Shown: positions 1 through 15,947 of the stretch, piece after piece
Numbering within the stretch: the first letter of the stretch is position 1
Layout of the letters: every line of letters starts with the position of its first letter
IMG/VR virus record: IMGVR_UViG_3300025128_000335
Coordinates: 1 to 23,876 of that record
Reading direction: 5' to 3' (one strand)
DNA: 23,876 nt
Source of the DNA: a virus
The notes under the pieces: model-generated
What the model saw: the letters and a program-made list of their open reading frames with translations, nothing else
Database searches by the model: none
Told to the model about the DNA's origin: nothing
Made by a program: the position numbers and the translations under genes

Positions 1-2
1 AA

Positions 3-110
3 CGAAACACAGAAGCCCTGGAAGAATTAGAGGCGTATAGAACCGCTAACCAGGCAGCCGTAGACGCGGTTAACGTACGCAGCCGCCTGATTGAACTAGG
101 CATTAATTAA
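3..110 (+). CDS. C-terminal end of gene upstream of capsid (probable prohead protease), partial
   Basis: An open frame enters from the left edge and ends at TAA 108-110, giving 35 residues that finish RLIELGIN. The residues are charged and helical (TEALEELEAYRTANQ). In HK97-like phages the gene just before the major capsid gene is usually the prohead protease, which often ends in a helical tail of this style; portal or a ClpP-type protease are alternatives. Only position and composition support the call, since no catalytic residues lie in the window. Confidence 0.5.
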   Translation, partial: RNTEALEELEAYRTANQAAVDAVNVRSRLIELGIN

Positions 111-323
111 AACAGTGTCGCATCGCAAATAGGAATCAGTAAATTTAACAACAGTCAGTAACCGAACGCCGCCGGTTAGTAAGTGCTGATTGACAGGCCA
201 CAGCAGAACACCGCAAGGGCTAGTAACTGTTGGTTCGTAGACGTTTTGTAATCACGCAAACCGTTTACCAGCCAAGGGTTATTAGCCCTTTTTGCGTTGG
301 TAAACCCAATGAGGGGTTCAGCA
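111..323 (+). promoter_or_regulatory. Structured leader of the major capsid gene
   Basis: This is a 213-nt gap without a convincing gene inside an otherwise tightly packed head cassette. Two perfect stems cross each other: ACGCAAA 254-260 with TTTGCGT 291-297, and GTTTACCA 263-270 with TGGTAAAC 298-305, which is a pseudoknot geometry. A small hairpin AAGGG 274-278 with CCCTT 286-290 nests inside and is followed by TTT. A competing 12-bp pairing joins 215-226 to 279-290 with one G-U pair. CAACAGT 149-155 can also pair with ACTGTTG 226-232. A perfect TTGACA lies at 190-195 but has no -10 box at normal spacing. A leader that controls capsid expression, or a terminator with an alternative fold, is inferred. 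Confidence 0.5.
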
Positions 324-1637
324 ATGGACAATATCAAACAGCTAAACGAACAGCGGCAGCAATTGGCCGCCGAAATTAAAGACCTAGCCGAACGGCAAAA
401 CGAATGGTCAGTAGAAGACCGCGAAGTATGGGAGCGCGTTAACGCCGCATACGACGACAACCAGGGACAATTAGACGCTGAAAAGGAACGGCTAGAAGTT
501 AGCGCCCGCGCTAACGAAGTAGCAGAAGCCAAAGACATTCAGCAGTTTAAAGCAGACCGCGAAACCCGCGAAATTAACCGCCCGGTTAACGAAGTGGAAC
601 GCCGCGCAGCCTTTTTGTGTTGGGCGCGTTTTCAACAGGGCCTAGACACCACAGAAGAACAGCGGCAAGCCGCTAAACGTTGCGGTGTTAACTGGCAGTC
701 TAAACACTACGATATCGGCCTACCTGGTACACCAGCAGGCTATAGCGTACGCGGTTACGGCGCTGAGTACCGTGCGCAGGCCACGACTTCAGATTCCGTC
801 GGTGGCGCGTTAATTCCCGAGGGCTTCAGCAACGAGCTAGAGCGCGCGTTACTAAGCTATGGCGGGCCGCGACGTGTAGCCCGAATTATTCGGACTAGCA
901 GCGGTAATCCAATCCCGTGGCCGACCGTTAACGATTCGAGCAACAAAGGCCAGCTATTAAGTGAAAACGCAGCCATTAGCGAAACCGCAGTAACGTTCGG
1001 TAGTGAAACGCTAAATGCTTATAAGTATTCATCTGATAGCGTTTTGGTATCCGCCGAATTAATGCAGGATAGTTTTTTTGATCTATCCTCGGAAATCGGT
1101 TCTATGCTCGGCGAACGTTTGGGCCGCATTACTAGCGAACACTTCACAACCGGCACTGGTTCGTCACAGCCAGAAGGCGTTGTAGTTGGTTCGGTAGCTG
1201 GCGTTACAGCCGCAAGCGCAACAGCGATTGCAGCAGATGAACTGATCGAACTAGTTCATAGCGTCGACCCTGCCTACCGTGAGTCCGCGGGCTGGATGAT
1301 GCACGATAACGTTATTCTGGCAATCAGAAAACTTAAAGACTCTGACGGTCAGTACCTATGGCAACCAGGACTACAAGCAAGCGAACCAGATCGCCTGCTA
1401 GGTAAGCCCGTTGTCGTTAACCAGGATATGGCCAGCAGCATTGCAACAACCGCTAAAACGGTTTTGTTTGGCGATTTTAGCCGGTTCATTATCCGCGACG
1501 TAGCAAACGTACGCCTTATGCGTCTTGACGAACGATACGCAGACTACGACCAAACAGGCTTTATCGCCTTTAGTCGTCACGACAGCGTAGTTTTAGACGC
1601 CGGTTCGAATCCCATTAAACACCTGGTACAGGCTTAA
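324..1637 (+). CDS. Major capsid protein, HK97 fold
   Basis: This 437-residue protein is the structural subunit of the icosahedral head. The first ~80 residues are charged and helical (QLNEQRQQLAAEIKDLAERQ), as expected for the scaffolding delta domain that the prohead protease removes. A linker leads to TTSDSVGGALIPEG at about 154-167, the typical start of the mature HK97-type subunit, followed by the family's beta-rich and helical body (SSDSVLVSAELMQDSFFDL). ATG 324 is preferred because GAGGGG at 311-316 sits 7 nt upstream; an in-frame TTG at 297 and ATG at 309 lie inside the leader stems. The stop overlaps the next start (TAATG). The family call is firm; the cleavage position is inferred. 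Confidence 0.93.
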   Translation: MDNIKQLNEQRQQLAAEIKDLAERQNEWSVEDREVWERVNAAYDDNQGQLDAEKERLEVSARANEVAEAKDIQQFKADRETREINRPVNEVERRAAFLCWARFQQGLDTTEEQRQAAKRCGVNWQSKHYDIGLPGTPAGYSVRGYGAEYRAQATTSDSVGGALIPEGFSNELERALLSYGGPRRVARIIRTSSGNPIPWPTVNDSSNKGQLLSENAAISETAVTFGSETLNAYKYSSDSVLVSAELMQDSFFDLSSEIGSMLGERLGRITSEHFTTGTGSSQPEGVVVGSVAGVTAASATAIAADELIELVHSVDPAYRESAGWMMHDNVILAIRKLKDSDGQYLWQPGLQASEPDRLLGKPVVVNQDMASSIATTAKTVLFGDFSRFIIRDVANVRLMRLDERYADYDQTGFIAFSRHDSVVLDAGSNPIKHLVQA

Positions 1638-1825
1638 TGTTAATTCGACTGTTAACCGGGATCGTTGGCGATCGTTTCAGTTACCGCGCAGGTGACGAAA
1701 TCGAAGTACCCGACGACCTGGCCGAACGTTTGATCGCGAAGAAGCAGGCCGAAGCCGTCACCCGTAAGAAGGTGGCGGCTAAGGCCGTTTCTAAACCTGT
1801 TAAGAAAACGAAGAAGCGCAAATGA
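1637..1825 (+). CDS. Small head-region protein with lysine-rich tail
   Basis: This 62-residue protein starts on the TAATG that ends the capsid gene and overlaps the next gene by 4 nt, so it is translationally coupled to both. The N-terminal half (LLTGIVGDRFSYRAGDEIEVPDD) is a small beta-rich unit followed by AERLIAKKQAEAV. Proteins of this shape often lie between the capsid and head-tail connector genes of tailed phages. The last 20 residues are almost all lysine, alanine and valine, which could bind DNA or an acidic partner. The precise function is not known. Confidence 0.75.
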   Translation: MLIRLLTGIVGDRFSYRAGDEIEVPDDLAERLIAKKQAEAVTRKKVAAKAVSKPVKKTKKRK

Positions 1826-2427
1826 ATTACGGCGTAAAACTTGTTACCGCCGCTACCGAGGAACCGGTAACGACCGCAGAAGCTAAAACGCATTTAGCCG
1901 TAGACGATAGCTACTACGATTCGTTTATAGGCGACCTGATAACCGCCGCCCGTAGCCAAATAGAAGACCTAACAAACCTACAAATGGTTACGGCTACCTA
2001 CGATTTATACCTGGATAGATTCCCGGCTGGCCGCGAGGCGCTGAATATACCCAAAGGCCATTTACAAAGCGTAACGAGTATTACGTACGTAGATACCGCC
2101 GGGGCTAGTCAAACCCTGGCCGGATCCGATTACAGCGTCATAACTAGCCGTTCGGTAGGTTTTGTAGAGCCGGTCTACGATAAGACATGGCCGATAGCCC
2201 GCAAACAATCCGACGCGGTAACGGTTAGATTTGTTGCCGGTTATGGGGCCGCCGCAGATGTACCGCAGGGACTCAAACAGGCAATTTTACTACTGGTCGG
2301 CAGCATGTTCGAAAACCGCGAAGGCACCCAGGCAGGGCCAGCGGGCGTTGTGCCTGTAGCCGTTAAAAGTCTGGTTAACCAGTTTCAGTTAGGGGATTCC
2401 TATACATGGTATGGGCAGGACAACTAA
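1822..2427 (+). CDS. Head-tail connector protein, gp6/phiE125 gp8-like
   Basis: This 201-residue protein likely forms the adaptor ring under the portal that joins head to tail. The opening VTTAEAKTHLAVDDSYYDSFIGDLITAA, then RSQIEDLTNLQMVTATYDLYLDRFP, is the hallmark of the gp6-like connector family: a short helix, then a helical bundle, then a beta-rich part. The rest (LNIPKGHLQSVTSITYVD; VRFVAGYG; GLKQAILLLVGSMFENRE) follows the usual order of the family, and the length is normal. It overlaps the lysine-rich gene by 4 nt and the next gene by 22 nt, in the standard connector-adaptor order. Confidence 0.88.
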   Translation: MNYGVKLVTAATEEPVTTAEAKTHLAVDDSYYDSFIGDLITAARSQIEDLTNLQMVTATYDLYLDRFPAGREALNIPKGHLQSVTSITYVDTAGASQTLAGSDYSVITSRSVGFVEPVYDKTWPIARKQSDAVTVRFVAGYGAAADVPQGLKQAILLLVGSMFENREGTQAGPAGVVPVAVKSLVNQFQLGDSYTWYGQDN

Positions 2428-2747
2428 GACGCCGCCTAACGCTAGAACAGCGGGCAACGACGGTAGACGACGCGGGCCAGGTAGATAACACCTGGACGAC
2501 CGCTGACACGTTTAGCGGTTCCGTACTTGATAAGGGCGGGGCCGAAACGATAAAGGGCGACCAGGTAAGCGCCACCACTACAACGGTAGTTATTATGCGA
2601 ACGCCGCGAAACAATACGACGCCAACGCCACAGATGCGGTTAACGTTCGACCATGACGGTAATACAAGAACGTTAAACATTGAATCGGTACAGCATCGCG
2701 ACGCTAAACAGCGTGAACTCTGGTTGTATTGCAGCGAGGCCAGCTAA
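2406..2747 (+). CDS. Phage head closure protein (head-tail adaptor, SPP1 gp16-like)
   Basis: This 113-residue protein has the small beta-barrel pattern of head closure proteins. It starts with a basic LRRRLTLEQRATTVDDAGQ segment, followed by VDNTWTTADTFSGSVLDKGG and a closing MRLTFDHDGNTRTLNIESVQ. In the family this ring closes the portal channel after DNA packaging. Its start lies 22 nt inside the connector gene and its stop forms TAATG with the next gene. Length and neighbours both fit. Confidence 0.85.
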   Translation: MVWAGQLRRRLTLEQRATTVDDAGQVDNTWTTADTFSGSVLDKGGAETIKGDQVSATTTTVVIMRTPRNNTTPTPQMRLTFDHDGNTRTLNIESVQHRDAKQRELWLYCSEAS

Positions 2748-3226
2748 TGCAGAAATCTGGGTTAGAGTTTAAAGGGCTAAAGGCGATGCAATCCCGGCTA
2801 GACAAGCTAGGCGGTAGCGTTAGGCGCGGGTTTGAACGGAAGCTAATTAGCAAGGCCGCGACTATTCAAATGCGGCACATACGAAAAGAAACCCCAAAGG
2901 GCAAAACGGGAAACCTTAAAAAGTCGATTAAACGAAAGCCTAGTAGTAAATGGGCTAGCGCTTCGAAGTTACGGGCCGCTGGCGTTATCGGCGTCGCGAT
3001 CGGACACGAACGACCGCAAGGCGCACACAGTCACCTGGTAGCAGAAGGCCACCGCGCTTTTTACTGGTCGCGAAATGATAGCGGCGAGGTAGTACCAGGC
3101 AGCGACTATTTCCAAAAAGGCTTGGAAAAGGGCAACGCCCAGGTAAACGCCAGTATTAAACAAGAAGCGCGAACGATTTTAAATAAGGTCGTAGCCAAAG
3201 CAAAAAGCAAGAAAAGTAAAAAGTAA
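2747..3226 (+). CDS. HK97 gp10-like neck/tail completion protein
   Basis: This 159-residue basic protein begins at the ATG that overlaps the head-closure stop; an in-frame TTG at 2729 lies inside the previous gene and is not needed. The segment LKAMQSRLDKLGG, then TPKGKTGNLKKSIKRK, and the later HSHLVAEGH fit the HK97 gp10 family, whose members sit at the head-tail junction. It is followed by a DUF3168-like protein as usual. The C-terminus is strongly basic (KVVAKAKSKKSKK). The family call is fairly secure; the structural role is taken from the family. Confidence 0.82.
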   Translation: MQKSGLEFKGLKAMQSRLDKLGGSVRRGFERKLISKAATIQMRHIRKETPKGKTGNLKKSIKRKPSSKWASASKLRAAGVIGVAIGHERPQGAHSHLVAEGHRAFYWSRNDSGEVVPGSDYFQKGLEKGNAQVNASIKQEARTILNKVVAKAKSKKSKK

Positions 3227-3640
3227 ATGGGACATATAGGGCCAGGGGTACGCAGTAAACTTATAGCCGATTCCGACGTTTCGGCGCTGGTAGGTACACG
3301 CATTAGGCCCGACAAACTAGCACAAAAAGAAACGTTACCCGCCATTGTGTACAGCGAACTAAACACCGAACACGACCAGGGAATAGCCGGGCCTGTTGGT
3401 TCAAGGCTTACACGTTTGGCGGTAGGCTGTTTCGATGATTCACGGCTAGGCGCTAACGCCCTGGCCGAAAAAGTACGCCTAGCGATCGACGGGGAGGTCG
3501 GCACGTTTGGCAGCGAAACGGTAGACGCATGTGTACTAGAAGACAGCGACCAACAAGACATACAGCCAGACGACGGTAGCGACGTTGGGCAGTACGTAAC
3601 CACCTTAGTGTTTTTAATCTCGCTACAGGAAACTACTTAA
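3227..3640 (+). CDS. DUF3168-like tail completion / tail terminator protein
   Basis: This 137-residue protein starts at ATG directly after the preceding stop. It contains VRSKLIADSDVSALVGTRI, then LPAIVYSELNTEHDQG, then SRLTRLAVGCFDDSRLGANALAEKVRLAID, which is the order typical of DUF3168 and gp17-like proteins. These form the ring that caps the tail tube and docks to the head. It lies directly before the tail tube gene, as usual. No odd features are seen. Confidence 0.85.
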   Translation: MGHIGPGVRSKLIADSDVSALVGTRIRPDKLAQKETLPAIVYSELNTEHDQGIAGPVGSRLTRLAVGCFDDSRLGANALAEKVRLAIDGEVGTFGSETVDACVLEDSDQQDIQPDDGSDVGQYVTTLVFLISLQETT

Positions 3641-3652
3641 AAGGTAATAACG

Positions 3653-4054
3653 ATGGCTCTAACAGGTAATGGCGCAAGCATATCAATTAGCGGTTTTACT
3701 GGTACGGTTCAAACGATCGCCGGTATTGAACACACGCGCGAAGTAATGGACGTAACCCCCCTGGACGCCGCCGACTTCGAAGAATTCGACCCGGCACCGC
3801 TACGCAATCCGGGCAGCGTTGACGTAGTTTACTTCTATGATTCCAGCAACGAAGCGCCACTAAGCGGCGCAGCAGGAACGGTAACAGTAACCTTCCCATT
3901 AAAAAGCGGGGAATCCACCGCCGCTACGCTATCCGGCACAGGCTTTTTGTCTCGCGCCGGAATCACGGAACTAAACAACACAGATAAAACGATGGGCGAA
4001 ATTACCGTGCAGTGGGACGGCAAAACAGGCCCAGCATATACCGCCGGGAGCTAA
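3653..4054 (+). CDS. Major tail tube protein
   Basis: This 133-residue beta-rich protein is the probable repeating subunit of the tail tube. The N-terminal half reads GNGASISISGFTGTVQTIAGIEHTREVMDVTPLDAADF; the middle (TVTFPLKSGESTAATLSGTG) and the last strands (GEITVQWDGKTGP) match short siphovirus tail tube proteins. AAGG sits 9-10 nt upstream of the ATG, a good ribosome site for an abundant protein. It sits between the tail terminator and the tail chaperone genes. Confidence 0.85.
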   Translation: MALTGNGASISISGFTGTVQTIAGIEHTREVMDVTPLDAADFEEFDPAPLRNPGSVDVVYFYDSSNEAPLSGAAGTVTVTFPLKSGESTAATLSGTGFLSRAGITELNNTDKTMGEITVQWDGKTGPAYTAGS

Positions 4055-4061
4055 TTAAACG

Positions 4062-4334
4062 ATGGCTAAAATCTCGATAGACGACCACCCCAACACAGAC
4101 ATTACAGACGTCAAGATTATCCGCGTAAATGGAATAGGCCCGGCTGCCTATTTCAACGTTGAAAACGCGACCGAATCTATCAGTATCGTAATGACGGTTG
4201 GCAATGAAATTATCGAGAAGATTAACCAGGCGGTTAGCGAGTACACCGGCAGTAAAAAGCGAAAAGTTACTAAACCCCCAAAGGACGAAACGAAGGTGCT
4301 AAACGATGACGACGACAACGACGGCGGGAACTAG
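4062..4334 (+). CDS. Small unknown protein between tail tube and tail chaperone
   Basis: I do not recognise this 90-residue protein. The first ~60 residues look like a compact alpha/beta unit (DVKIIRVNGIGPAAYFNVE, SISIVMTVGNEIIEKINQAVS). The last ~25 are charged: a lysine-rich part (GSKKRKVTKPPKDE) followed by an aspartate-asparagine run. It lies 8 nt after the tail tube stop and overlaps the tail chaperone start by 29 nt, so the acidic end of this protein and the threonine-rich start of the next share DNA. A role in tail assembly is inferred from position only. Confidence 0.7.
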   Translation: MAKISIDDHPNTDITDVKIIRVNGIGPAAYFNVENATESISIVMTVGNEIIEKINQAVSEYTGSKKRKVTKPPKDETKVLNDDDDNDGGN

Positions 4335-4698
4335 AGAGCTACTACTAGGATTTACGAAACGCCGATACCGCGAAGAATGTATTGCGGGTATTAACTGGCG
4401 TTTGAAAAGTTTAACAGAAGGCGAAAAAGCGCGCTTCGAACAGTCATGCCTAAATAAAAAGGGCATGGTACGCGACGACGCGCGCCGCCGTTTGTTAATC
4501 CTGATGCTAGTAGACGACGACGGCGACCAGTTGTTATTGGATACAGACGTTAGGTTACTGGCCGAATTGGACGCGGCAGTAACACAACGCCTGTTTGAAG
4601 TAGCGATGGAGCATGCCGGATTCCAGCCGGATGACGTTGACGACATGGTGAAAAAAAACTCGCAGATAACCCGCGAAGACGATTCGCCTTTAAATTAG
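4306..4698 (+). CDS. Tail assembly chaperone, short form (G-like)
   Basis: This 130-residue protein is the normal-frame product of the tail chaperone locus. In siphoviruses the short form and a frameshifted long form help the tape measure protein assemble the tail. Visible family-like parts are LLLGFTKRRYREECIAGINW, LTEGEKARFE, then RRRLLILMLVDDDGD and ELDAAVTQRLFEVAMEHAGF, ending KKNSQITREDDSPLN. The start overlaps the preceding gene by 29 nt, with AAGG about 10 nt before it. The end holds an A-run that lets part of the ribosomes shift into the -1 frame. Confidence 0.85.
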   Translation: MTTTTTAGTRELLLGFTKRRYREECIAGINWRLKSLTEGEKARFEQSCLNKKGMVRDDARRRLLILMLVDDDGDQLLLDTDVRLLAELDAAVTQRLFEVAMEHAGFQPDDVDDMVKKNSQITREDDSPLN

Positions 4699-4970
4699 CG
4701 CTTGCGCTAGGTGAATGGGACGTGGACGGGCTGCTAGATACGATACCCGCCGAACTGTTTAGCGAGTGGTATTTATACGCCGCCTACTACGAACCGTTCG
4801 GCGACACCTGGTTACAAACCAGTTACATATGCAGCGTAGCTAGTAACATGCTGGCTACAAAGCAGAACGAATTATTAGACCTCGATACCTTCGTACCAAA
4901 AGTAATGGACGAAGTAACCAAGCCTAAAAACGAACTAGACGAAGGGCAGCTAGCCGCCCTCTACGGATAA
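4306..4970 (+). CDS. Tail assembly chaperone, long form made by -1 frameshift (GT-like)
   Basis: Shifting -1 at 4653-4659 joins the short-form frame to a frame running to TAA 4968-4970, giving about 221 residues. The joined part begins LADNPRRRFAFKLALALGEW, which is family-like before any possible start codon; a separate gene starting at GTG 4722 would lose that conserved stretch. It continues DVDGLLDTIPAELFSEW and YYEPFGDTWLQTSYICSVAS, the usual T-domain pattern in which the long form binds the tape measure protein made by the next gene. The T-domain frame has no convincing ribosome site of its own. Confidence 0.82.
4651..4659 (+). promoter_or_regulatory. Programmed -1 ribosomal frameshift site
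   Basis: Eight A residues followed by C are read in the zero frame as AAA AAA AAC, so the heptamer A AAA AAC (4653-4659) is present in the correct phase. This is one of the most efficient known -1 slippery sequences. It lies 39 nt before the zero-frame TAG at 4696-4698, and the -1 frame after it encodes the T-domain. No long downstream hairpin stands out by eye. Confidence 0.85.
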
Positions 4971-4976
4971 AACAAA

Positions 4977-6509
4977 ATGGCCGCAAATCTGGGAAGTATG
5001 GTAGCGAGTCTAACGGTGCAAACGCGCCCGTTTGACAGCGGACTAAAGCGCAGCGCGGGCCAGCTAAACAGGTTTGGTAACCATGTTAAAACGAATACCG
5101 CCAATCTTAAACGCATGGCCGGTACTGCGCTAAAAACCGTTGGCGCGTTTCTTGGTTTTAGGGCCGTTGTAAATATCTTCAACGAAGCACGCGCGGCGAT
5201 CGACAAGGTAACTAAGGCGGCCCGTGGTTTAGGCATGAGCGCCCAAGCGCTCGAACAATGGCAGCACGCCGCAAGCCTGGCAGGGGTTAGCCAGGAAACA
5301 ATGGTAAAAGCCTTTAACAAGCTACCGTTTGTTATCGGCCAGGCCCAGCAAGGTTTAGCAACCTACCAGCGGGCGTTTAAATTGCTGGGCCTAGATGCTA
5401 ACCAGTTAGCTAACCTATCACCCGCGGAACAAATGAAAGAACTGGCCGCGGCAATCAGTCAAATACAAAACCCAACAGACCGCGCCGCGCTGGTTATGCA
5501 GTTATTTGGCTCCAGAATCGGGGCGGAACTAATACCGCTGTTAATGCAGACTACCGAAGAACTACAGGCGCAGTTTAACGAATGGGACGAACTCGCGGGC
5601 ATTATTGGCGGCGTTGGCCGTAAGGCTGTAGAAGATTACAACGATTCGCTAACAAAATTAGACGCTATCTGGCAAGGTCTTAAACGAGCGCTAACCGTTA
5701 CGCTCGCAACCGCACTAACGCCGATTGTAAACACGTTTATAGACTGGCGACGCGCGTTAAACGATCTAGACCCGCGGCTAGCCGCCATAATTACCGGCAC
5801 CCTTAAATTTGTCGCCGCCATGACGGGGTTAATTGTAGCCTATCGCCTTTTTGCGCTAACGCTAAAAGCAGTTAACGTTCTATTAGACGCGCAACTGATT
5901 AAAAAGTTAGCGTTACTTGCAGTAGCTAACCCGTTTATGGCGGCGCTGGTCGGTTTTACCGGTCTATTTGTTTCTATCGGTCTGGCGATGGACGACGGCA
6001 AAAAAGCGGCTAAGGATCTAGGCAAGGAAATTGAAAACGAAACGCAAAAAATGTTATCCGCCATTGGAGCCGCTACACAATTAGCCGCAAAAATGGACTC
6101 GCTACGGGCCGCAGCCGAATCGCTAAAGCAAACCCTACGTACGCCTTTCGAAATATTCCGCGACGAACTAACCCAGTTAGTAGAGTTAAGCACCTGGATA
6201 GATGACCAGACGGGGTTACCGTTTATCGACACAGACACGTTTAACCGCGGGATAGCCGCCGCAGTAGATAAGCTGGCAAAGGCGTTAAACCTAGCACAGA
6301 AAATACGCGACGCACTTAAACCAGTCGCGGCGGTACGTCTGGGAACGATGGCGGAAGTTGAAGCCCGGCACGAATCCGAACGACAAGTAAAAGCCCAGGG
6401 ACAGTACCAAAATCAGATACTAAAACTACGTCAAAAAGCGAACGGAATGTTAGCCCAGATCCAGGCGAACACCGCCGCCCAACCACCCATAGCGAACGTA
6501 CAACCATAA
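4977..6509 (+). CDS. Tail tape measure protein
   Basis: This 510-residue protein likely sets tail length and leads DNA ejection. It begins LGSMVASLTVQTRPFDSGLK, then coiled-coil and amphipathic segments (RSAGQLNRFGNHVKTNTANLKRM) that are common at the start of tape measure proteins. A hydrophobic block lies at about residues 268-338 (FVAAMTGLIVAYRLFALTL; ALLAVANPFMAALVGFTGLF). The C-terminal part is again helical and glutamine-rich. It follows the frameshifted chaperone locus, its normal position. At about 0.15 nm per residue the tail would be near 75 nm, which is short for a siphovirus. Confidence 0.85.
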   Translation: MAANLGSMVASLTVQTRPFDSGLKRSAGQLNRFGNHVKTNTANLKRMAGTALKTVGAFLGFRAVVNIFNEARAAIDKVTKAARGLGMSAQALEQWQHAASLAGVSQETMVKAFNKLPFVIGQAQQGLATYQRAFKLLGLDANQLANLSPAEQMKELAAAISQIQNPTDRAALVMQLFGSRIGAELIPLLMQTTEELQAQFNEWDELAGIIGGVGRKAVEDYNDSLTKLDAIWQGLKRALTVTLATALTPIVNTFIDWRRALNDLDPRLAAIITGTLKFVAAMTGLIVAYRLFALTLKAVNVLLDAQLIKKLALLAVANPFMAALVGFTGLFVSIGLAMDDGKKAAKDLGKEIENETQKMLSAIGAATQLAAKMDSLRAAAESLKQTLRTPFEIFRDELTQLVELSTWIDDQTGLPFIDTDTFNRGIAAAVDKLAKALNLAQKIRDALKPVAAVRLGTMAEVEARHESERQVKAQGQYQNQILKLRQKANGMLAQIQANTAAQPPIANVQP

Positions 6510-7633
6510 TGTCAGTAACAGAAGTAATTAAACAATACGGTGGCCGCCAGGCGAATTACGATTACCCTGGTAAGGCTAGTTACACGATGCGTTATATCGT
6601 CAAAACCGACGACGTTAACGACGGCATGGACGCCGTAATGCTATCTGACGAAATTCCATCGCCGGGCGATACCTGGGACATTGGGCACGACGACGACGCC
6701 ACCAGCATCGCTAAAAAATTTAGTATTGAAGAACTCGAACAAAACCTATGGCAAGTAACGGTAACGTTTGGCGCGCGGGATAAAGATAATAAAAGCAATA
6801 ACCCTAGCGGCGACTGGAGACTTGAAGGGCCAGAAATCGACGTTAGCACAACGAGCGTAAGCCGCCCCGCCGAATATGGCACGTATTGCGGTCAATTCCT
6901 CGTACAGGGCGGCGGTAACGCAATGCCGGTTATCATGGGGCCGCATAAAGGACAGGTAGCCCAGTTCGACGCCCGCGGGCCGATAACCCAGGACTTCGCG
7001 ACGCCCGGCGGTAACTTTATAGCCGGTGGTATTAGTAACGCCATACCTATAACCAACAGTGCCTGGACACCGTTTGACCCGCCGCCAGAAGCAGAGTATA
7101 GCCGTTTATCTATTCGAATTACGCGTAACCATGCTGTTTACCCTACAGCCTTAATGGGCGCGTACCAGGACACGGTAAACGCCGCGCCGTTCTTTATTAA
7201 TATCAACGGGTTTCAATTAATGGTACCGCGTTTTGTCGCCCGTTTAGTTGGCGTTAGTGGCAGCCGCCAGTTTGCCGAGGAATCGCCTTACTGGCGCGTA
7301 TCGTATGAACTGCTACTAGACTTTTACACTACCTGGCGGGTACTGCTACTGGATCGCGGATACCAGGAAGCGAAAGAAGAAGAGGACGCGCAATCACTGC
7401 GCGATAGTGACGAGAACGGCGACCCTATACCGCTGGGTATGAACAAAGAAAAACACAACATCATAGACGATAAGGGCCTACCGTTAACCGCGCCTGTTTT
7501 AATGGACGGCCACGGCAAAGTAATGATGGGCGGTTCGACGCCCGTTTATCTCTGGTATGCGATTTACCAGGAAAGAGATTTTTCGCGATTACAGTTTCAT
7601 AACCCCGGCCCTATTTTAGTAATGCCGAATTAA
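6509..7633 (+). CDS. Unknown structural protein after the tape measure (tail-tip candidate)
   Basis: I cannot assign this 374-residue protein to a named family. It starts on the TAATG that ends the tape measure gene. It is rich in beta strands and aromatic residues: YTMRYIVKTDDVNDGMDAV, WQVTVTFGARD, and a later part with SPYWRVSYELLLDF and TTWRVLLLDRGYQEA. The C-terminal ~100 residues contain an acidic stretch (KEEEDAQSLRDSDENGDPI) and end PVYLWYAIYQERDFSRL. Position and the mixed beta architecture suggest a distal tail or baseplate hub component. Confidence 0.7.
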   Translation: MSVTEVIKQYGGRQANYDYPGKASYTMRYIVKTDDVNDGMDAVMLSDEIPSPGDTWDIGHDDDATSIAKKFSIEELEQNLWQVTVTFGARDKDNKSNNPSGDWRLEGPEIDVSTTSVSRPAEYGTYCGQFLVQGGGNAMPVIMGPHKGQVAQFDARGPITQDFATPGGNFIAGGISNAIPITNSAWTPFDPPPEAEYSRLSIRITRNHAVYPTALMGAYQDTVNAAPFFININGFQLMVPRFVARLVGVSGSRQFAEESPYWRVSYELLLDFYTTWRVLLLDRGYQEAKEEEDAQSLRDSDENGDPIPLGMNKEKHNIIDDKGLPLTAPVLMDGHGKVMMGGSTPVYLWYAIYQERDFSRLQFHNPGPILVMPN

Positions 7634-7647
7634 AGGAATAACACGCA

Positions 7648-8481
7648 ATGGCTAATAAAACCTGGCTAGGAAACGGAACCGCAAGCAGCGCTAATTATGG
7701 CGACTGGTCACAGGCTGATAACTGGTCACCGTCTGGGGTTCCTGTTGCTAGCGATGATGTTAGGTTTACCGCGGAACATACCACCGCGGTAACCGGTGGC
7801 CTGAATCAATCCGCCGTAACCCTCGGCGATTTAATAATTGAAACAGGTTACAAAGGCAAAATTGGGACCAATACCGCCAGCCTACAAGTCGGCGTCGCTA
7901 GTTTCGAATACAGCGGCAGCGCCACCGCGGCGTTTATAGATTTAGGCAGTAGTGCCATAGGCCCGGTCATTCACAACACGGGCGCGGCGGGCGTCGGCCA
8001 GGTAGCGTTAGAGATCAAAGGCAGCGCATTTACTACCGTTACGGTTATGGGCGGTAACGTCGGGTTAGCGACGAAGCACGGCGACACAGCCAGCGCCACA
8101 AATGTACGCGTTATTAACGGTAGTATTGCTATTGGATCCGGGGCAACGGTAACCAATCTACACGTATTCCAGGGTACCGCCGTAACAGCCTCAGATATTA
8201 CCGGCTGTAACTTACACGGCGGAACCGTAACGTTTAAAGAACAGGCAAACGCCACAACGTTAGATTTAGAGGGCGGCATTTGTAATTACGATGCTGAGGG
8301 AACCATAACAACGGCCAATTGTAACGGCGGCAAACTAAACGTTGGCGCGGGGCAAGCTAAAACGATTACAACGCTAAACATCGAACCCGGTGGCAGTATA
8401 CGTTACTACCCTAGTAACCTAACAATTACAAATAATTCCGTATCGACTAACCCTATAGATATAACGACGAATAATGCCTGA
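7648..8481 (+). CDS. Beta-solenoid protein, tail fibre or adhesin candidate
   Basis: This 277-residue protein opens with NKTWLGNGTASSANYGDWSQ and ADNWSPSGVPVASDDVRF, a start seen on many secreted or surface beta-helix proteins. The rest is a run of short hydrophobic strands with Gly, Thr, Asn and Val (LQVGVASFEYSG; VRVINGSIAIGSGATVTNLH; GTITTANCNGGKLNVGAGQ), which suggests a right-handed beta-helix. AAAGGA lies about 10 nt before ATG. It probably forms part of the host-contact apparatus; the actual receptor is unknown. Confidence 0.7.
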   Translation: MANKTWLGNGTASSANYGDWSQADNWSPSGVPVASDDVRFTAEHTTAVTGGLNQSAVTLGDLIIETGYKGKIGTNTASLQVGVASFEYSGSATAAFIDLGSSAIGPVIHNTGAAGVGQVALEIKGSAFTTVTVMGGNVGLATKHGDTASATNVRVINGSIAIGSGATVTNLHVFQGTAVTASDITGCNLHGGTVTFKEQANATTLDLEGGICNYDAEGTITTANCNGGKLNVGAGQAKTITTLNIEPGGSIRYYPSNLTITNNSVSTNPIDITTNNA

Positions 8482-9466
8482 TGGTTACCTGGTTAGTCGC
8501 GATCTATTACGGCAGATTCAACGCGACCACAGCCGAATAAAATACGAACTAAAAACCGTTTCTGGCCAGGTTAGCAGATTGTCAACCGTTGCGCCCCTGC
8601 GCGATGAACAAATGCTAGCCCAGGCCCAGGCGGAAGTAGCAGCGATCGACAGCACCGAAAGTGAACCGTTAGTAACGTCGGGTACATTTAAAGTTTTGTT
8701 TTTAGATCGAAAAGACGAAAAGCTAAAACAGCTTAGTGATTACGAAGTCACAGCGTGGAATGTCACCGGCGACGATATTGAAAAGGATGCTTATGTAACG
8801 CTACAACGTAACAGCGTTACGGGTAAATGGGTTATTAACCCTAACAACCGGGCCGTTATTAGGTTTCGTTTAAAAGAGGATCCAAAGGCGTACAAACGGC
8901 CCGCAGATACCAGCACGCAGTACTGGTACGCCTCAGCGGATAAAATCACATTTACCTACGATCCAGACAACGACGACAGCACCGACAACGGGTTAACACT
9001 GGGGCCAACAGATGACGACGAAATCACAGATTCGGACGAAATCACAGTATACGACCCTTACGGTAAATTCCGTTTTGCCAAAGGGCCGCGAACACACCCG
9101 GACGGAAGCGACCTAAAAGGTAGTTACGGGTACGCCGAATTAATAAAAGGTGCCTGGCATATTATCGAATGTGAAACAGTCGCGAAGTTTATAAACTTCG
9201 CTATAGATAATACGGCGGGTTACACGCAGGCCGATAACGTCTGGAATATCGACTCGCTGTTTAATCCTATCGACGGTATCCACCCAGGCGATAGCATAAC
9301 AACGGTTCTAAACTGGCAGGTTAACGCCCACGTTTCACCAGTTAGTTATCTGTTTGAAGGGGTCGACGGGGCCACAGGGTTAGCTCAGTTTCAAGACGAT
9401 AACCTAAGCAGCGGCACGTACTACTACAAAATCATCCAGTTAGAAGTAGATTGCGGGGCCAGCTAA
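8474..9466 (+). CDS. Unknown tail-region structural protein
   Basis: I do not recognise this 330-residue protein. The first ~60 residues (DGYLVSRDLLRQIQRDHSRI, then YELKTVSGQVSRLS) form a probable helical anchor, and the remainder is beta-rich with many Asp, Thr and Tyr residues. An acidic strand-turn region (DPDNDDSTDNGLTLGPTDDD) is followed by EITVYDPYGKFRFAKG and a final part ending GTYYYKIIQLEVDCG. The start overlaps the preceding gene by 8 nt and the stop forms TAATG with the next gene. The architecture of helical anchor plus beta domains suits a tail-tip or fibre-attachment protein. Confidence 0.68.
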   Translation: MPDGYLVSRDLLRQIQRDHSRIKYELKTVSGQVSRLSTVAPLRDEQMLAQAQAEVAAIDSTESEPLVTSGTFKVLFLDRKDEKLKQLSDYEVTAWNVTGDDIEKDAYVTLQRNSVTGKWVINPNNRAVIRFRLKEDPKAYKRPADTSTQYWYASADKITFTYDPDNDDSTDNGLTLGPTDDDEITDSDEITVYDPYGKFRFAKGPRTHPDGSDLKGSYGYAELIKGAWHIIECETVAKFINFAIDNTAGYTQADNVWNIDSLFNPIDGIHPGDSITTVLNWQVNAHVSPVSYLFEGVDGATGLAQFQDDNLSSGTYYYKIIQLEVDCGAS

Positions 9467-10707
9467 TGCCAGCCCCGTACCCGTGGTGGTCTAAGAAATG
9501 GTGGTACCCGAATTGCTGCTGTAATGAATGTCTAATATTCCACGATGATTGCCGCGGCTATTATCCGTTGGTACCCGCAGTATGGTGGCATGAATACGAG
9601 CTACCCAGTAGCTCGCAACCCTGGAAAACTGACGTCTACGATACGTCGTCATCGTTTGGTGAAATTGGGTACGTTTGCGGCGACGGGTTTTTAATCTGTA
9701 AAACGGAAATAAGCGAGGCCCCCTATAACTGCGTCGTTGGCGCTAAATTCCTATGGGCCACAGCCACAGACACAGCTACCGCGCGAATGGTCGTAGATTA
9801 CGTTGACGATGATAACTTCCATTACGTTGATATCGACCATGACGGTAGCCGTAGCGGTGATTCGATAGAGATACGTTTCTACGATCGCGCCGCGGGCGCT
9901 GATACACAGATAGGCAGCACCATTAGCGTAGATTCGAGCGAGCTAACCGGCTGGCCTAGTCTCTACGTTGTCGTCTGTAAAAGTACTACGGCGATGCAGC
10001 TAAATATATTTAGTGCGACTACACCCTACGCCGACGGCTGGCCGCCGTTCACAGATCAAACTACGTCGTTTTTCGCAGAAGCCCAAATAACAAACAAAGC
10101 CGGGAAACAGGCGGGCGTAGGCTTAAAGGGCGCGTACCTCGGATCCGGCGGAAGTCGTACAGATGACGATTACGGCATACGGCTGCAGGAATTCTGGTTA
10201 GAACGTACCGCCGATGAAAATAGTAACTGTGAAGCCTGCCAGCGGCTGTGCTGTAGCGATACGTTGCCTATAGAATTCGACGTTACGCTGGATGGTTTTG
10301 AGGATAGCAACCCCAGCACTACAGGCGGCGGTTTCTGTTTAGATTGTAGCGACGTAGACGACGTTTATACCGTTTCGCAGACCTGGGGCTGCTGTTGGGA
10401 GTTCGACGCGGGTTACTCTACGACGTTTTTCGAATGTGATTACGAACAATCCGGCGTAGAGTTTCAGGGTGCGCGATATACCACCGTTAGGTTATGCGTT
10501 TCCGAGGATTTAGCAACAAATAACGCTGTGTGGGAATTGCAGATATTAGAGATAGGACACAGTAACAAAAGAATAGCCTGGCAATATGATTCAGGCCAAA
10601 CGTATCCCGCGGCGTGTGCGCTTGATGGCACCGAGAGTTGGACGGAAAGCCTAAATACAACAAACTGTAAAACAGACGCGGTAACGGTTAGTGTAGTGGT
10701 GGGTTAA
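9466..10707 (+). CDS. Cysteine-rich tail-region protein with lectin-like middle
   Basis: This 413-residue protein starts at the ATG of TAATG; an in-frame TTG at 9451 is inside the previous gene. It has about 21 cysteines, mainly in clusters: NCCCNEC near the N-terminus, NCEACQRLCC in the middle, then FCLDCSD and WGCCWEF. Between the first two clusters is a beta-rich stretch (TARMVVDYVDDDNFHYVDID; IEIRFYDRAAGADTQIGS; LYVVVCKSTTAMQLNIF) that resembles a jelly-roll of the concanavalin-like type. The clusters could bind metal or form disulfides in the virion. Host binding is a reasonable inference only. Confidence 0.68.
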   Translation: MPAPYPWWSKKWWYPNCCCNECLIFHDDCRGYYPLVPAVWWHEYELPSSSQPWKTDVYDTSSSFGEIGYVCGDGFLICKTEISEAPYNCVVGAKFLWATATDTATARMVVDYVDDDNFHYVDIDHDGSRSGDSIEIRFYDRAAGADTQIGSTISVDSSELTGWPSLYVVVCKSTTAMQLNIFSATTPYADGWPPFTDQTTSFFAEAQITNKAGKQAGVGLKGAYLGSGGSRTDDDYGIRLQEFWLERTADENSNCEACQRLCCSDTLPIEFDVTLDGFEDSNPSTTGGGFCLDCSDVDDVYTVSQTWGCCWEFDAGYSTTFFECDYEQSGVEFQGARYTTVRLCVSEDLATNNAVWELQILEIGHSNKRIAWQYDSGQTYPAACALDGTESWTESLNTTNCKTDAVTVSVVVG

Positions 10708-13471: not shown

Positions 13472-14977
13472 TTACCCGTATTCCTTTTGCGTTTCTATGG
13501 CCTGGTTTAGCTGCATATCGGGGTGGTAGCGCCGCGTCATTTGCTGGGTAACATGGCCTAAAACTGCCTGGGCTGCTTCAATGCCGCCTTGTTCCACTAG
13601 CGTAGTATTACGGCGATAGCGCAGCAGATGCGGGAATATATCAGCGACGCCTACGCGTTTTGCTACGCGCTGCATCGACTGGCGGTAGGTATCAACGCTA
13701 TAACGTTCGTTGGTGATTTTAGCGAGGCCGCCGGGCAACTGCTGATAAATGCTATCCCACGTTGGGGCCAGGTTTGCCGGTGGCTCATAGCCCACTAACT
13801 TAAACGTGGTGCTAAACTTCTTCTTCGTGCCAGTCTTTTCAATCACATAACCACGGTTCCTCAGATACTGTAACGCCCCGCCGTAGTGTTTCTTGATTCG
13901 CATAAGCTCATTACATTTAACCTCGCCCTTTTCAAGTCGGCGAAGAATCTTAGCGGCGACGTGTTTAGGATCTACCGTAAGACTCTTACGGTTATGGGCC
14001 TTAAGGCTCGTTAGCCATCGGTAGTAACTGGCGTTAGCCCTCGGGTTAAAAATATATTCATGGCCCCTATCGGGGCGCTGCTGCTCATAATCAAGTAGCG
14101 CCTGCACCGCTGTAGCCCCAAACACGATATTTAGCCGCCCTATTTTTTCTTCCGTTTTATGGCTGGGGGCGTAGATCCAGCAGCCGTCAGCCTCGTACCT
14201 GCTCTGGTCGATATCATTCCATTTAAGATCTACCAGGTTACCACTACGCATACCGGTGTTAAGCTGTACCGCTAGCATCGTTCGCAGCGTTGGCGGGGCA
14301 GCCTCTATGATTTGTTGCACCGATTCGGTGCTAGGCGTTGCGCGTTGCTGTTTGGTTTTTACGCCATCTACCTTACGCAGGCCTTTTACCATCCTTAGGT
14401 AGACGTAAACGTCCTTATGGCAAAGGTGATGGTTAGCACCCCAGCGGAAGATATCACGGATCAACCAAACCTTTTTAGCTATCGTCGCCTGGGCGTTACC
14501 GACTCGGTTCATAAGTCGATTCTGTATATCTTCTAGATCAGTTGTTTTAAATGTATCCGCAACCCGGTGGCCGTAAGGCGCTAGCTGTTGGCGTACCGTT
14601 TCGATAGCTTGCAGCGCGCGGGTATCACGTAGAGATGTAGCGCGGTCGGTGCTGTCCGGGTTACGCCTTCCCTTTTCGTGTTCTAGATAGGCGTCGACTA
14701 GTTCGTCGATTGTTACGCTCTGGTAACTATCAAACCTATCCTCGACGGCTGGCCGTCGCTCTACCGGCTGGCCGGATTCTTTCGCGTACCATTTTTCAAA
14801 GTCGTGCCACATTTCAGCAGACTTATACTCTCCGGCGAAGTACTTCGTTTTGCGTACCGGTTTGCCGTTAGCATTGCGTACTATTTCGCCGTCGTCGTTG
14901 GTAACCGTCCAGCGGACATAACCTTTACCTTTACCTTTATGTAATTGTGGCGCGGTGGGTAGTGGTGTACCGGTCAT
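13472..14977 (-). CDS. int: Tyrosine-family integrase with inserted winged-helix-like segment
   Basis: This 501-residue protein likely integrates and excises the phage at attP/attB. Numbering from the chosen ATG, an N-terminal arm-binding region is followed by a core-binding region at about 85-195 (VTIDELVDAYLEHEKG). The catalytic domain has R244 (NTGMRSGNL), a lysine in HKTEEK (K274), H450 and R453 (FPHLLRYRRNT), H475 (VLGHV) and the nucleophile Y484 (TRRYHPDM). Residues ~336-398 between the first arginine and the H-x-x-R box look like an inserted winged helix (ILRRLEKGEVKCNELMRIKK; YLRNRGYVIEKTG). ATG 14977 has AGGGAG about 8 nt upstream; a longer start at 15019 would run through the GGTGTACC arm sites. 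It lies next to attP. Confidence 0.9.
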   Translation of the reverse strand: MTGTPLPTAPQLHKGKGKGYVRWTVTNDDGEIVRNANGKPVRKTKYFAGEYKSAEMWHDFEKWYAKESGQPVERRPAVEDRFDSYQSVTIDELVDAYLEHEKGRRNPDSTDRATSLRDTRALQAIETVRQQLAPYGHRVADTFKTTDLEDIQNRLMNRVGNAQATIAKKVWLIRDIFRWGANHHLCHKDVYVYLRMVKGLRKVDGVKTKQQRATPSTESVQQIIEAAPPTLRTMLAVQLNTGMRSGNLVDLKWNDIDQSRYEADGCWIYAPSHKTEEKIGRLNIVFGATAVQALLDYEQQRPDRGHEYIFNPRANASYYRWLTSLKAHNRKSLTVDPKHVAAKILRRLEKGEVKCNELMRIKKHYGGALQYLRNRGYVIEKTGTKKKFSTTFKLVGYEPPANLAPTWDSIYQQLPGGLAKITNERYSVDTYRQSMQRVAKRVGVADIFPHLLRYRRNTTLVEQGGIEAAQAVLGHVTQQMTRRYHPDMQLNQAIETQKEYG

Positions 14978-15020
14978 AATAATCTCCCTGAGTTGGCTGC
15001 TGTGGTGTACCGGGTACACC
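14964..15020. repeat. Left-arm GGTGTACC repeats near integrase start
   Basis: GGTGTACC occurs at 14964-14971 and 15004-15011, with its reverse complement at 15013-15020 one base later. The same octamer forms the right cluster at 15265-15292. Arm-type integrase or excisionase sites flanking the attP core are the best fit; a repressor operator is possible. Confidence 0.65.
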
Positions 15021-15111: not shown

Positions 15112-15150
15112 TTATGAGCCTCGCGAGCTACCGGGCTGCTCCACCCCGCG
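15112..15150 (-). other. Putative attP core: 5' half of initiator tRNA
   Basis: Read leftward from 15150, the strand gives CGCGGGGTGGAGCAGCCCGG, followed by TAGCTCGCGAGGCTCATAA. This is the first 38-39 nt of a bacterial initiator tRNA-fMet: acceptor strand, D arm, anticodon 5' stem and the CTCATAA anticodon loop with its CAT anticodon. Similarity stops right after the loop, where a tRNA would need a 3' anticodon stem, so this is not a tRNA gene. It sits 135 bp upstream of the integrase start with phage genes on both sides. The natural reading is an att core for integration into the host initiator-tRNA gene. The rest of 15020-15321 holds no gene. Confidence 0.85.
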
Positions 15151-15260
15151 ATATGTAACGTTTACTCTTGTTTTTAAGTGTCAAATGCTTCCGTTGGCTA
15201 TGTTAAGTAATGTTGTTTGTATCGGCATAGTTATACCTGAAAATGCAGTGTTTATAAACC

Positions 15261-15292
15261 CCGTGGTGTACCGTGGTGTACCGTGGTGTACC
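15261..15292. repeat. Right-arm triple 10-bp tandem repeat
   Basis: CCGTGGTGTA occurs three times in perfect tandem at 15261-15270, 15271-15280 and 15281-15290, followed by CC. It places GGTGTACC at 15265, 15275 and 15285, on the same helix face. These lie about 115 bp right of the tRNA-like core. Confidence 0.8.
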
Positions 15293-15321
15293 GCCCGTTC
15301 AATGGTACGTATAGACGCCCC

Positions 15322-15558
15322 CTAAGTATCCTTTGAAATCTTCAATTCAAACAGCGCCTGCTCTACGGCTGAGGCGAACACCTGCACACGTCTAACGGCT
15401 TCGGTAGTGTTAGCCATGTGGCTAACTTCAATCGTCTCAGCGCCCAAGTCGTTAGCCGTTTCTGCTAGCGCGCGGATCCCATCCGCGGCATGGGTCAACG
15501 TGTCGGCGATCGTCCCAAGTGCGCCAACCTTGATTTGCGTAAGGTTTTTCTGCGGCAT
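15322..15558 (-). CDS. Small helical leftward protein, unknown
   Basis: This 78-residue protein is mostly helical (IADTLTHAADGIRALAETAND; TTEAVRRVQVFASAVEQALF) with few aromatic residues. I do not recognise it and see no DNA-binding helix-turn-helix. Its start faces the excisionase-like gene across a 173-bp divergent promoter region, the place where temperate phages often keep a regulator of lysogeny. The ribosome site is weak. It could be a small regulator or an accessory protein for recombination. Confidence 0.55.
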   Translation of the reverse strand: MPQKNLTQIKVGALGTIADTLTHAADGIRALAETANDLGAETIEVSHMANTTEAVRRVQVFASAVEQALFELKISKDT

Positions 15559-15671: not shown

Positions 15672-15720
15672 TTGCATAACGCTGTAAAGCCCTTTATAAA
15701 ACTATGCGTAAATTTCGCAT
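15672..15720 (+). promoter_or_regulatory. Candidate early promoter and operator
   Basis: TATAAA (15695-15700) is a good -10 box 17 bp after TTGCAT (15672-15677), a weak -35 box. An imperfect palindrome ATGCG-7 nt-CGCAT at 15704-15720 covers the expected transcription start, suiting a repressor operator. GGAGGG then lies just before the ATG at 15732. The TTG in the -35 box could start a longer frame but would be inside the promoter. Confidence 0.55.
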
Positions 15721-15731
15721 GGAGGGTAAGA

Positions 15732-15947
15732 ATGTTAAACGACACAACACAGCCAGCCGTTACGCTGGCGGACTTCGAACACGCGTTATCGATACAAGAG
15801 GTCGCAGACTCTCTAAGCCTGCATTACATGACGGTAAGCCGCTGGCTGCATAACGGCCAGTTAAAGGGCTACAAGGTCGGGCGTAAGTGGCATGTGCTAC
15901 CAGTCGACCTGGACGCATTTCTAAACCAGGCGGGTAACGCTCATTAA
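15732..15947 (+). CDS. Excisionase-like helix-turn-helix protein
   Basis: This 71-residue protein has the MerR-type winged-helix pattern of small excisionase or HTH_17 proteins: LSIQEVADSLSLHYMTVSRW, then LHNGQLKGYKVGRKWHVLPV and DLDAFLNQ. In this family the helix-turn-helix chooses the site and the G-R-K-W-H strand forms the wing. Excisionases direct integrase towards excision; related proteins act as regulators. The ATG has GGAGGG a few bases upstream. It is the first gene of the rightward early operon, about 580 bp from attP, which fits an excision or switch role. Confidence 0.78.
   Translation: MLNDTTQPAVTLADFEHALSIQEVADSLSLHYMTVSRWLHNGQLKGYKVGRKWHVLPVDLDAFLNQAGNAH

Follow-up and report, generated by a model that had tools for sequence, protein, structure and literature searches.

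Elements that integrate into tRNA genes are typically described as carrying the 3' half of the gene (PMC10865867). As summarised in a passage of PMC8371274 that cites Williams 2002, tRNA genes rebuilt in bacteria almost always keep their original promoter, and use of the 5' half is a feature of archaeal pTN3-like elements that is seldom met in bacteria. The pTN3-like elements (pTN3 of Thermococcus nautili, and TKV4) carry 41 bp of the 5' half of a tRNA-Leu gene, and the gene rebuilt on integration is taken off its promoter (PMC5495485, PMC8371274). In the tRNA-dependent lysogeny of actinobacteriophages, the core is only about 10 bp long, the host tRNA is destroyed, and the phage carries a complete tRNA gene (PMC10865867).

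The DNA analysed here (the window) is an entire virus record of 23,876 bases. Positions 15112 to 15150 read on the minus strand CGCGGGGTGGAGCAGCCCGGTAGCTCGCGAGGCTCATAA, 39 nt that start with base 1 of an initiator tRNA and end where its CTCATAA anticodon loop ends. The bases that follow, GGCCATAACCC, do not continue the tRNA and are unrelated DNA, and ARAGORN found no tRNA anywhere in the 23,876 bases. The original prediction of a 39-nt match to tRNA-fMet through this loop is correct to the base, and its description of 5'-half carriage as unusual agrees with the literature, in which the 3' half is typical (PMC10865867) and the 5' half, in the passage cited above, seldom bacterial (PMC8371274). 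The half also lies, as had been claimed, beside an integrase gene (13472-14977, minus strand, 135 nt downstream) with phage genes on both sides: capsid, connector, tape measure and tail genes to the left, and HTH/excisionase-like, AAA, DnaD-like replication, C5-methylase, metallophosphatase and HNH genes to the right. The features around the half are as follows.

13472-14977, minus strand: tyrosine integrase (int), ATG at 14977-14975, lambda-type domain order, inserted segment at about residues 335-400 (PF00589, E=4e-16; phrog_1)
14962-14972, plus strand: putative arm-type site GTGGTGTACCG, overlapping the first int codons (exact repeat; same-offset equivalents in relatives)
15002-15012, plus strand: putative arm-type site GTGGTGTACCG on the int side (exact repeat; same-offset equivalents in relatives)
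15112-15150, minus strand: attP core, identical to the 5' half of tRNA-fMet(CAT), the initiator tRNA of planctomycetes (sequence; exact match to host fMet genes; all 39 positions invariant in 10 phage lineages)
15179-15184, minus strand: TTGACA, candidate -35 box at -34 to -29 from tRNA base 1, with no convincing -10 box (sequence)
15263-15273, 15273-15283 and 15283-15293, plus strand: three putative arm-type integrase sites GTGGTGTACCG with a 10-bp period (exact repeats; same-offset equivalents in relatives)
15322-15558, minus strand: small conserved ORF (MPQKN...) that immediately precedes the tRNA half and has the same orientation (same-place homologues in L192, L266 and L265; ORF table for L034, L043 and L064)
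15672-15947, plus strand: HTH_17 protein, excisionase-like, divergent from int (PF12728, E=2e-11; weak matches to the excisionases phrog_2907/1840)

The capsid gene is at the left end of the record and the HNH gene at the right end (ends 1 and 23876), and terminase, portal and protease genes are apparently absent. In a relative (G227), an HNH gene is located about 9 kb before the capsid gene, a spacing from which a terminase-portal segment is probably missing between the two ends of the window, so that the att region is internal to the phage genome. The record is therefore probably an incomplete genome.

Five exact copies of GTGGTGTACCG are present in the window, starting at 14962, 15002, 15263, 15273 and 15283; all are around the half, none is elsewhere, and they are split three and two between the two sides of the core. 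For the 9-mer TGGTGTACC, 0.11 chance matches would be expected. The arm repeats of relatives have other sequences (for example, TTACGGATT, TGTACATCA, TGTGCACAATT and GTACGCAAAA) at the same offsets as in the window (with base 1 of the tRNA as reference, about -119 to -163 and +125 to +178), and reach -195 in L265. When one 8-mer common to both arm zones, in at least three copies, was demanded, 10 of 12 testable contigs passed at the half, compared with none of 129,173 background positions; the contigs L064 and L068 failed this two-sided test. Because a constant core is flanked on both sides by phage-specific arms, the half is, judged by this arrangement, the core of a lambda-type attP. Both arms are in one piece and phage genes continue on both sides, so that this attP is not integrated, in accordance with the earlier claim. 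A conserved hairpin that was considered between the core and int is poorly supported.

The catalytic domain PF00589 was found in the window integrase and in all 10 integrases aligned with it. The AF2 model of the window integrase (pLDDT 81) gave Foldseek matches to lambda Int, XerA and Tn1549 Int. In this model, the insert at about residues 335-400 in the catalytic domain forms helices and a hairpin, with a weak winged-helix (PadR-type) match; apparently two copies of it exist in L090 (9531-11258), and none in L041/L265.

The exact 39-mer is present in 13 IMG/VR contigs, all of which (13/13) have the 5' half only, with the same stop point. Across ten distinct lineages, the window included, 39 of 39 columns are invariant, whereas the columns flanking the core on both sides agree in about four to five of ten sequences, which is the chance level. 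The same 39-mer is part of whole fMet genes in planctomycetes; this, together with its invariance in ten phages whose flanks agree only by chance, means that the half is not a chance match. An integrase homologous to that of the window (23-44% identity) lies directly beside the half in nine of the ten lineages, again counting the window, and in the tenth, L022, the int side of the half is short in the available piece. These relatives were reached through a search by tRNA sequence, and a search of viral contigs and GenBank phages with the single integrase protein found no relatives. Conversely, an integrase-profile scan of IMG/VR recovered 13 contigs; the half is present in 11 of them, and the other two break off within int. 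No complete tRNA was found in any relative, the genomes of which are incomplete.

L192 was considered as an attL and rejected: it has xis-like and recT phage genes upstream and is 98.6% identical to L266 over 3.5 kb, and is accordingly read as an attP. Four unannotated matches to the half in GenBank phages were also set aside; three turned out to be complete tRNAs, and the remaining one (L006) is cut short by the end of its record. L068 (3803-5448; L278 is from the same contig) differs from all relatives in that its half has the inverted orientation with respect to the integrase and no arm repeats were detected. Positions 15131-15228 (minus strand) of the window have a sub-threshold Rfam match to S774 (RF02896), the consensus of which itself ends in an fMet 5' end; this family may be an fMet leader and not an independent small RNA.

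The search of bacterial genomes suggested in the original prediction yielded exact initiator-tRNA matches, mainly in Planctomycetes. The 39-mer was found in at least 117 pieces of GTDB genomes, and 110 of the 117 listed are whole fMet genes. Almost all of the whole genes listed belong to Planctomycetota, and a few to Peregrinibacteria, Binatia and Deltaproteobacteria. It is present in 124 of 397 Pirellulales genomes, in 122 of the 124 as a single exact copy, and the core is identical (39/39) to the attB expected in planctomycete fMet genes. One contig that has this half together with phage genes, L192, was binned in a Pirellulales MAG. In addition, four Pirellulales genomes, in which the structural gene order of the window is partly present, encode capsids that share 42-46% identity with the window capsid along most or all of the latter. 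The 39-mer matches, the binning of L192 and the capsid relatives all point to Planctomycetes as the hosts of the phage.

The two Pirellulales genomes with two copies of the 39-mer, G186 and G293, were considered as lysogens and rejected: since all four copies are whole tRNAs and the surroundings in G293 are host-like, these genomes have duplicated fMet genes. A divergent initiator-type tRNA-Met exists at 4352-4424 of L306 (contig 2 of G075), a 43.5-kb contig that also carries related capsid genes.

On integration, the tyrosine integrase would bind the flanking arm repeats and the core in the anticodon stem, and a crossover in or near the anticodon loop would insert the phage into the host fMet gene. 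Because the phage and host 5' halves are identical, the products would be the same wherever the crossover falls within the 39 bp. One end would comprise the host promoter, an orphan 5' half and int. The other would comprise phage DNA, the phage 5' half and the host 3' half, that is, an intact fMet gene severed from its own promoter, and its predicted junction is the MPQKN side of the phage followed by the 39-mer and the 3' half, CCTCGAGG. When this side of the window was joined in silico to planctomycete 3' halves, ARAGORN (linear mode) recognised tRNA-Met(CAT) in 107 of 107 cases; the reciprocal junction (attL) gave no tRNA with any of the five hosts tested (0/5). On this side, the prophage would end with the MPQKN ORF (15322-15558) as its final gene; the rebuilt tRNA behind it would be transcribed from prophage DNA, by way of either a nearby upstream promoter or read-through out of this ORF. 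All 39 bases would be kept as part of an essential RNA, not through any need of recombination.

The earlier claim that integration replaces the 5' part of the tRNA follows from this geometry, and such a replacement is seen in an unrelated integrated element, L011, described below. The tRNA sequence would nevertheless be unchanged, because the halves are identical; what is replaced would be everything upstream of base 1, namely the promoter. The main consequence, which the original prediction did not draw, is that the prophage would capture the promoter position of the initiator-tRNA gene; this much follows from the geometry, and transcription from the phage side is what we infer. Upstream of the half, good -10 boxes exist in L068, L034/L043 and L106 (24-25 nt upstream), and weak ones elsewhere. 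A promoter scan of the family gave a pooled Fisher p of 0.04 with an E. coli consensus, which detects native planctomycete fMet promoters poorly, and with this consensus no consistent sigma-70 promoter was found upstream of the half across the family.

The core, the arms, the adjacent integrase and the identity to host fMet genes can be read directly from the DNA. The best explanation of them together is that a temperate, siphovirus-like phage infecting Planctomycetes has an attP whose core is the 5' half of the host initiator tRNA, and that this phage integrates into, and rebuilds, the fMet gene; we give this reading a probability of about 0.87. It is improbable to a high degree that the half is a captured tRNA fragment, such as a transduction remnant or a tRNA-derived decoy RNA, instead of an attP core: tRNA fragments are common around mobile elements (PMC9897764), but here the two endpoints are identical in ten lineages, the cognate integrase adjoins wherever that side is present, and the half is centred between phage-specific arm repeats. 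Only slightly less remote is a form of tRNA-dependent lysogeny, in which the host fMet gene would be broken by the insertion and its place taken by a separate tRNA that the phage encodes. Although such lysogeny is known in actinobacteriophages (PMC10865867), the present core is 39 bp long rather than about 10 bp, and the tRNA was rebuilt in all 107 in silico junctions. Moreover, no complete tRNA was detected in the window, outside which several kilobases of the genome lie, or in any relative, which makes complementation by a second phage tRNA unlikely.

A further alternative, which we regard as unlikely, accepts integration as described and leaves the rebuilt tRNA unexpressed, lysogens relying on a second initiator-tRNA gene and the phage supplying no promoter. 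The lack of a clear shared promoter upstream of the half would fit this, as would the two exact-match fMet genes in each of the Pirellulales genomes G186 and G293. However, the exact 39-mer occurs just once in each of the other 122 of the 124 Pirellulales genomes that have it, and the strict retention of all 39 bases, about 30 of which are away from the anticodon loop, points to selection for tRNA function; L011, moreover, keeps a promoter-like pair at a host-like distance. Under the preferred reading of a phage that rebuilds a functional fMet gene, a broader and tentative proposal, to which we would give somewhat less than an even chance, is that a widespread planctomycete prophage family takes over transcription of the usually single initiator-tRNA gene of its hosts. 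Translation initiation in the lysogen would then depend on a promoter in the prophage, open to tuning by the phage, and the orphaned host promoter would read toward int at the opposite end.

The original prediction also proposed a search for integrated relatives with attL and attR at initiator-tRNA genes. None was found for the window's integrase family in 397 Pirellulales genomes and 241 genomes of the G001 family, with few candidates scored per genome, and Pirellulales prophages with related capsids (in G075, G227, G057, G134 and G231) were rejected as candidates for lack of a 5'-half site. Both ends are present in the unrelated L011 (IMGVR_UViG_3300050821_011048, 1-9636), which was found by searching IMG/VR for fMet 5' halves followed by non-tRNA bases. 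This 9.6-kb contig contains a 9.4-kb phage-like element integrated in 5'-half mode, with genes for a terminase small subunit, a capsid and a tyrosine integrase (PF14659 type) unrelated to that of the window, and with the fMet 5' half present as a direct repeat of 39 bp. At the left (attL), TTGACC-17-TATGAT, an excellent match to a promoter that 0 of 1000 shuffles equalled in score, precedes an orphan half that has T for C at base 1 and runs into element DNA. At the right (attR), a whole tRNA-Met lies behind TTGCGG-17-TAATAT, the candidate -10 box of which overlaps the int stop codon (p=0.07 against shuffles for the pair); this pair is at nearly the same distance as that before the related fMet gene in L078, and the promoter match is suggestive. 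By its sequence, L011 is the predicted product in another lineage, with a host promoter stranded with a dead half and a rebuilt gene behind element DNA. Few other phage genes were seen in L011, and it is possibly a capsid-forming satellite.

A TCAGG-type fMet 5' half is also located directly upstream of its own tyrosine integrase gene in L024 (7014-7052) and L119 (6600-6638), which belong to an unrelated, unintegrated phage. At least three independent lineages, namely the planctomycete family, L024/L119 and L011, carry the 5' half of the essential initiator tRNA. In IMG/VR, 73 pieces have a whole fMet gene near the piece end with phage on its 3' side. The chromosome of Adhaeretor mobilis has, at 3.10-3.19 Mb (L272-L274), one whole fMet tRNA as well as three copies of the 3' half, downstream of which lie three integrase genes, apparently a tandem array of classical 3'-half elements whose integrases are distantly related to that of the window. 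From these 3'-half copies and the 5' halves of the phages, one planctomycete fMet gene appears to be used in both polarities.

Nearly all elements that target tRNA genes carry the 3' half and leave the host promoter in place, whereas the 5' half found here would put a gene needed for every protein behind phage DNA. Such a system offers a clean way to ask if an essential host promoter can be owned by prophages, and its invariant core with diverging arms is well suited to separating the constraint of tRNA function from integrase recognition. It also adds a set of uncultured phages linked to Planctomycetes, for which few named phages were met in the literature searched.

The window shares with classical lambda-type 3'-half tRNA prophages and islands a tyrosine integrase, arms on both sides, a core that ends in the anticodon loop and a rebuilt tRNA, but it carries the other half of the tRNA, so that the rebuilt gene would gain a new upstream region and not a new 3' flank. 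As in the tRNA-dependent lysogeny of actinobacteriophages, the prophage would control the supply of an essential host tRNA; in contrast to it, the core is 39 bp long, the tRNA would be rebuilt, and neither the window nor its relatives yielded a complete tRNA. L011 likewise uses the 5'-half mode at an initiator-tRNA gene and is seen integrated, but it has an unrelated integrase, its int gene is upstream and ends in a stop codon that overlaps the candidate promoter for the rebuilt tRNA, and it belongs to another host clade. As in pTN3, the attP comprises a tRNA 5' half up to the anticodon region, from which an intact tRNA would be rebuilt apart from its original promoter. In archaeal pTN3 the target is tRNA-Leu, the att site is inside int and int is disrupted, whereas the core of the window belongs to an initiator tRNA, is flanked by lambda-type arm repeats, and lies outside int, 135 nt from its ATG; because of this last difference, the system works like a pTN3-like element but is not one. 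Thus, the 5'-half mode itself is known, and it is combined here with an initiator tRNA and a lambda-type attP with arms.
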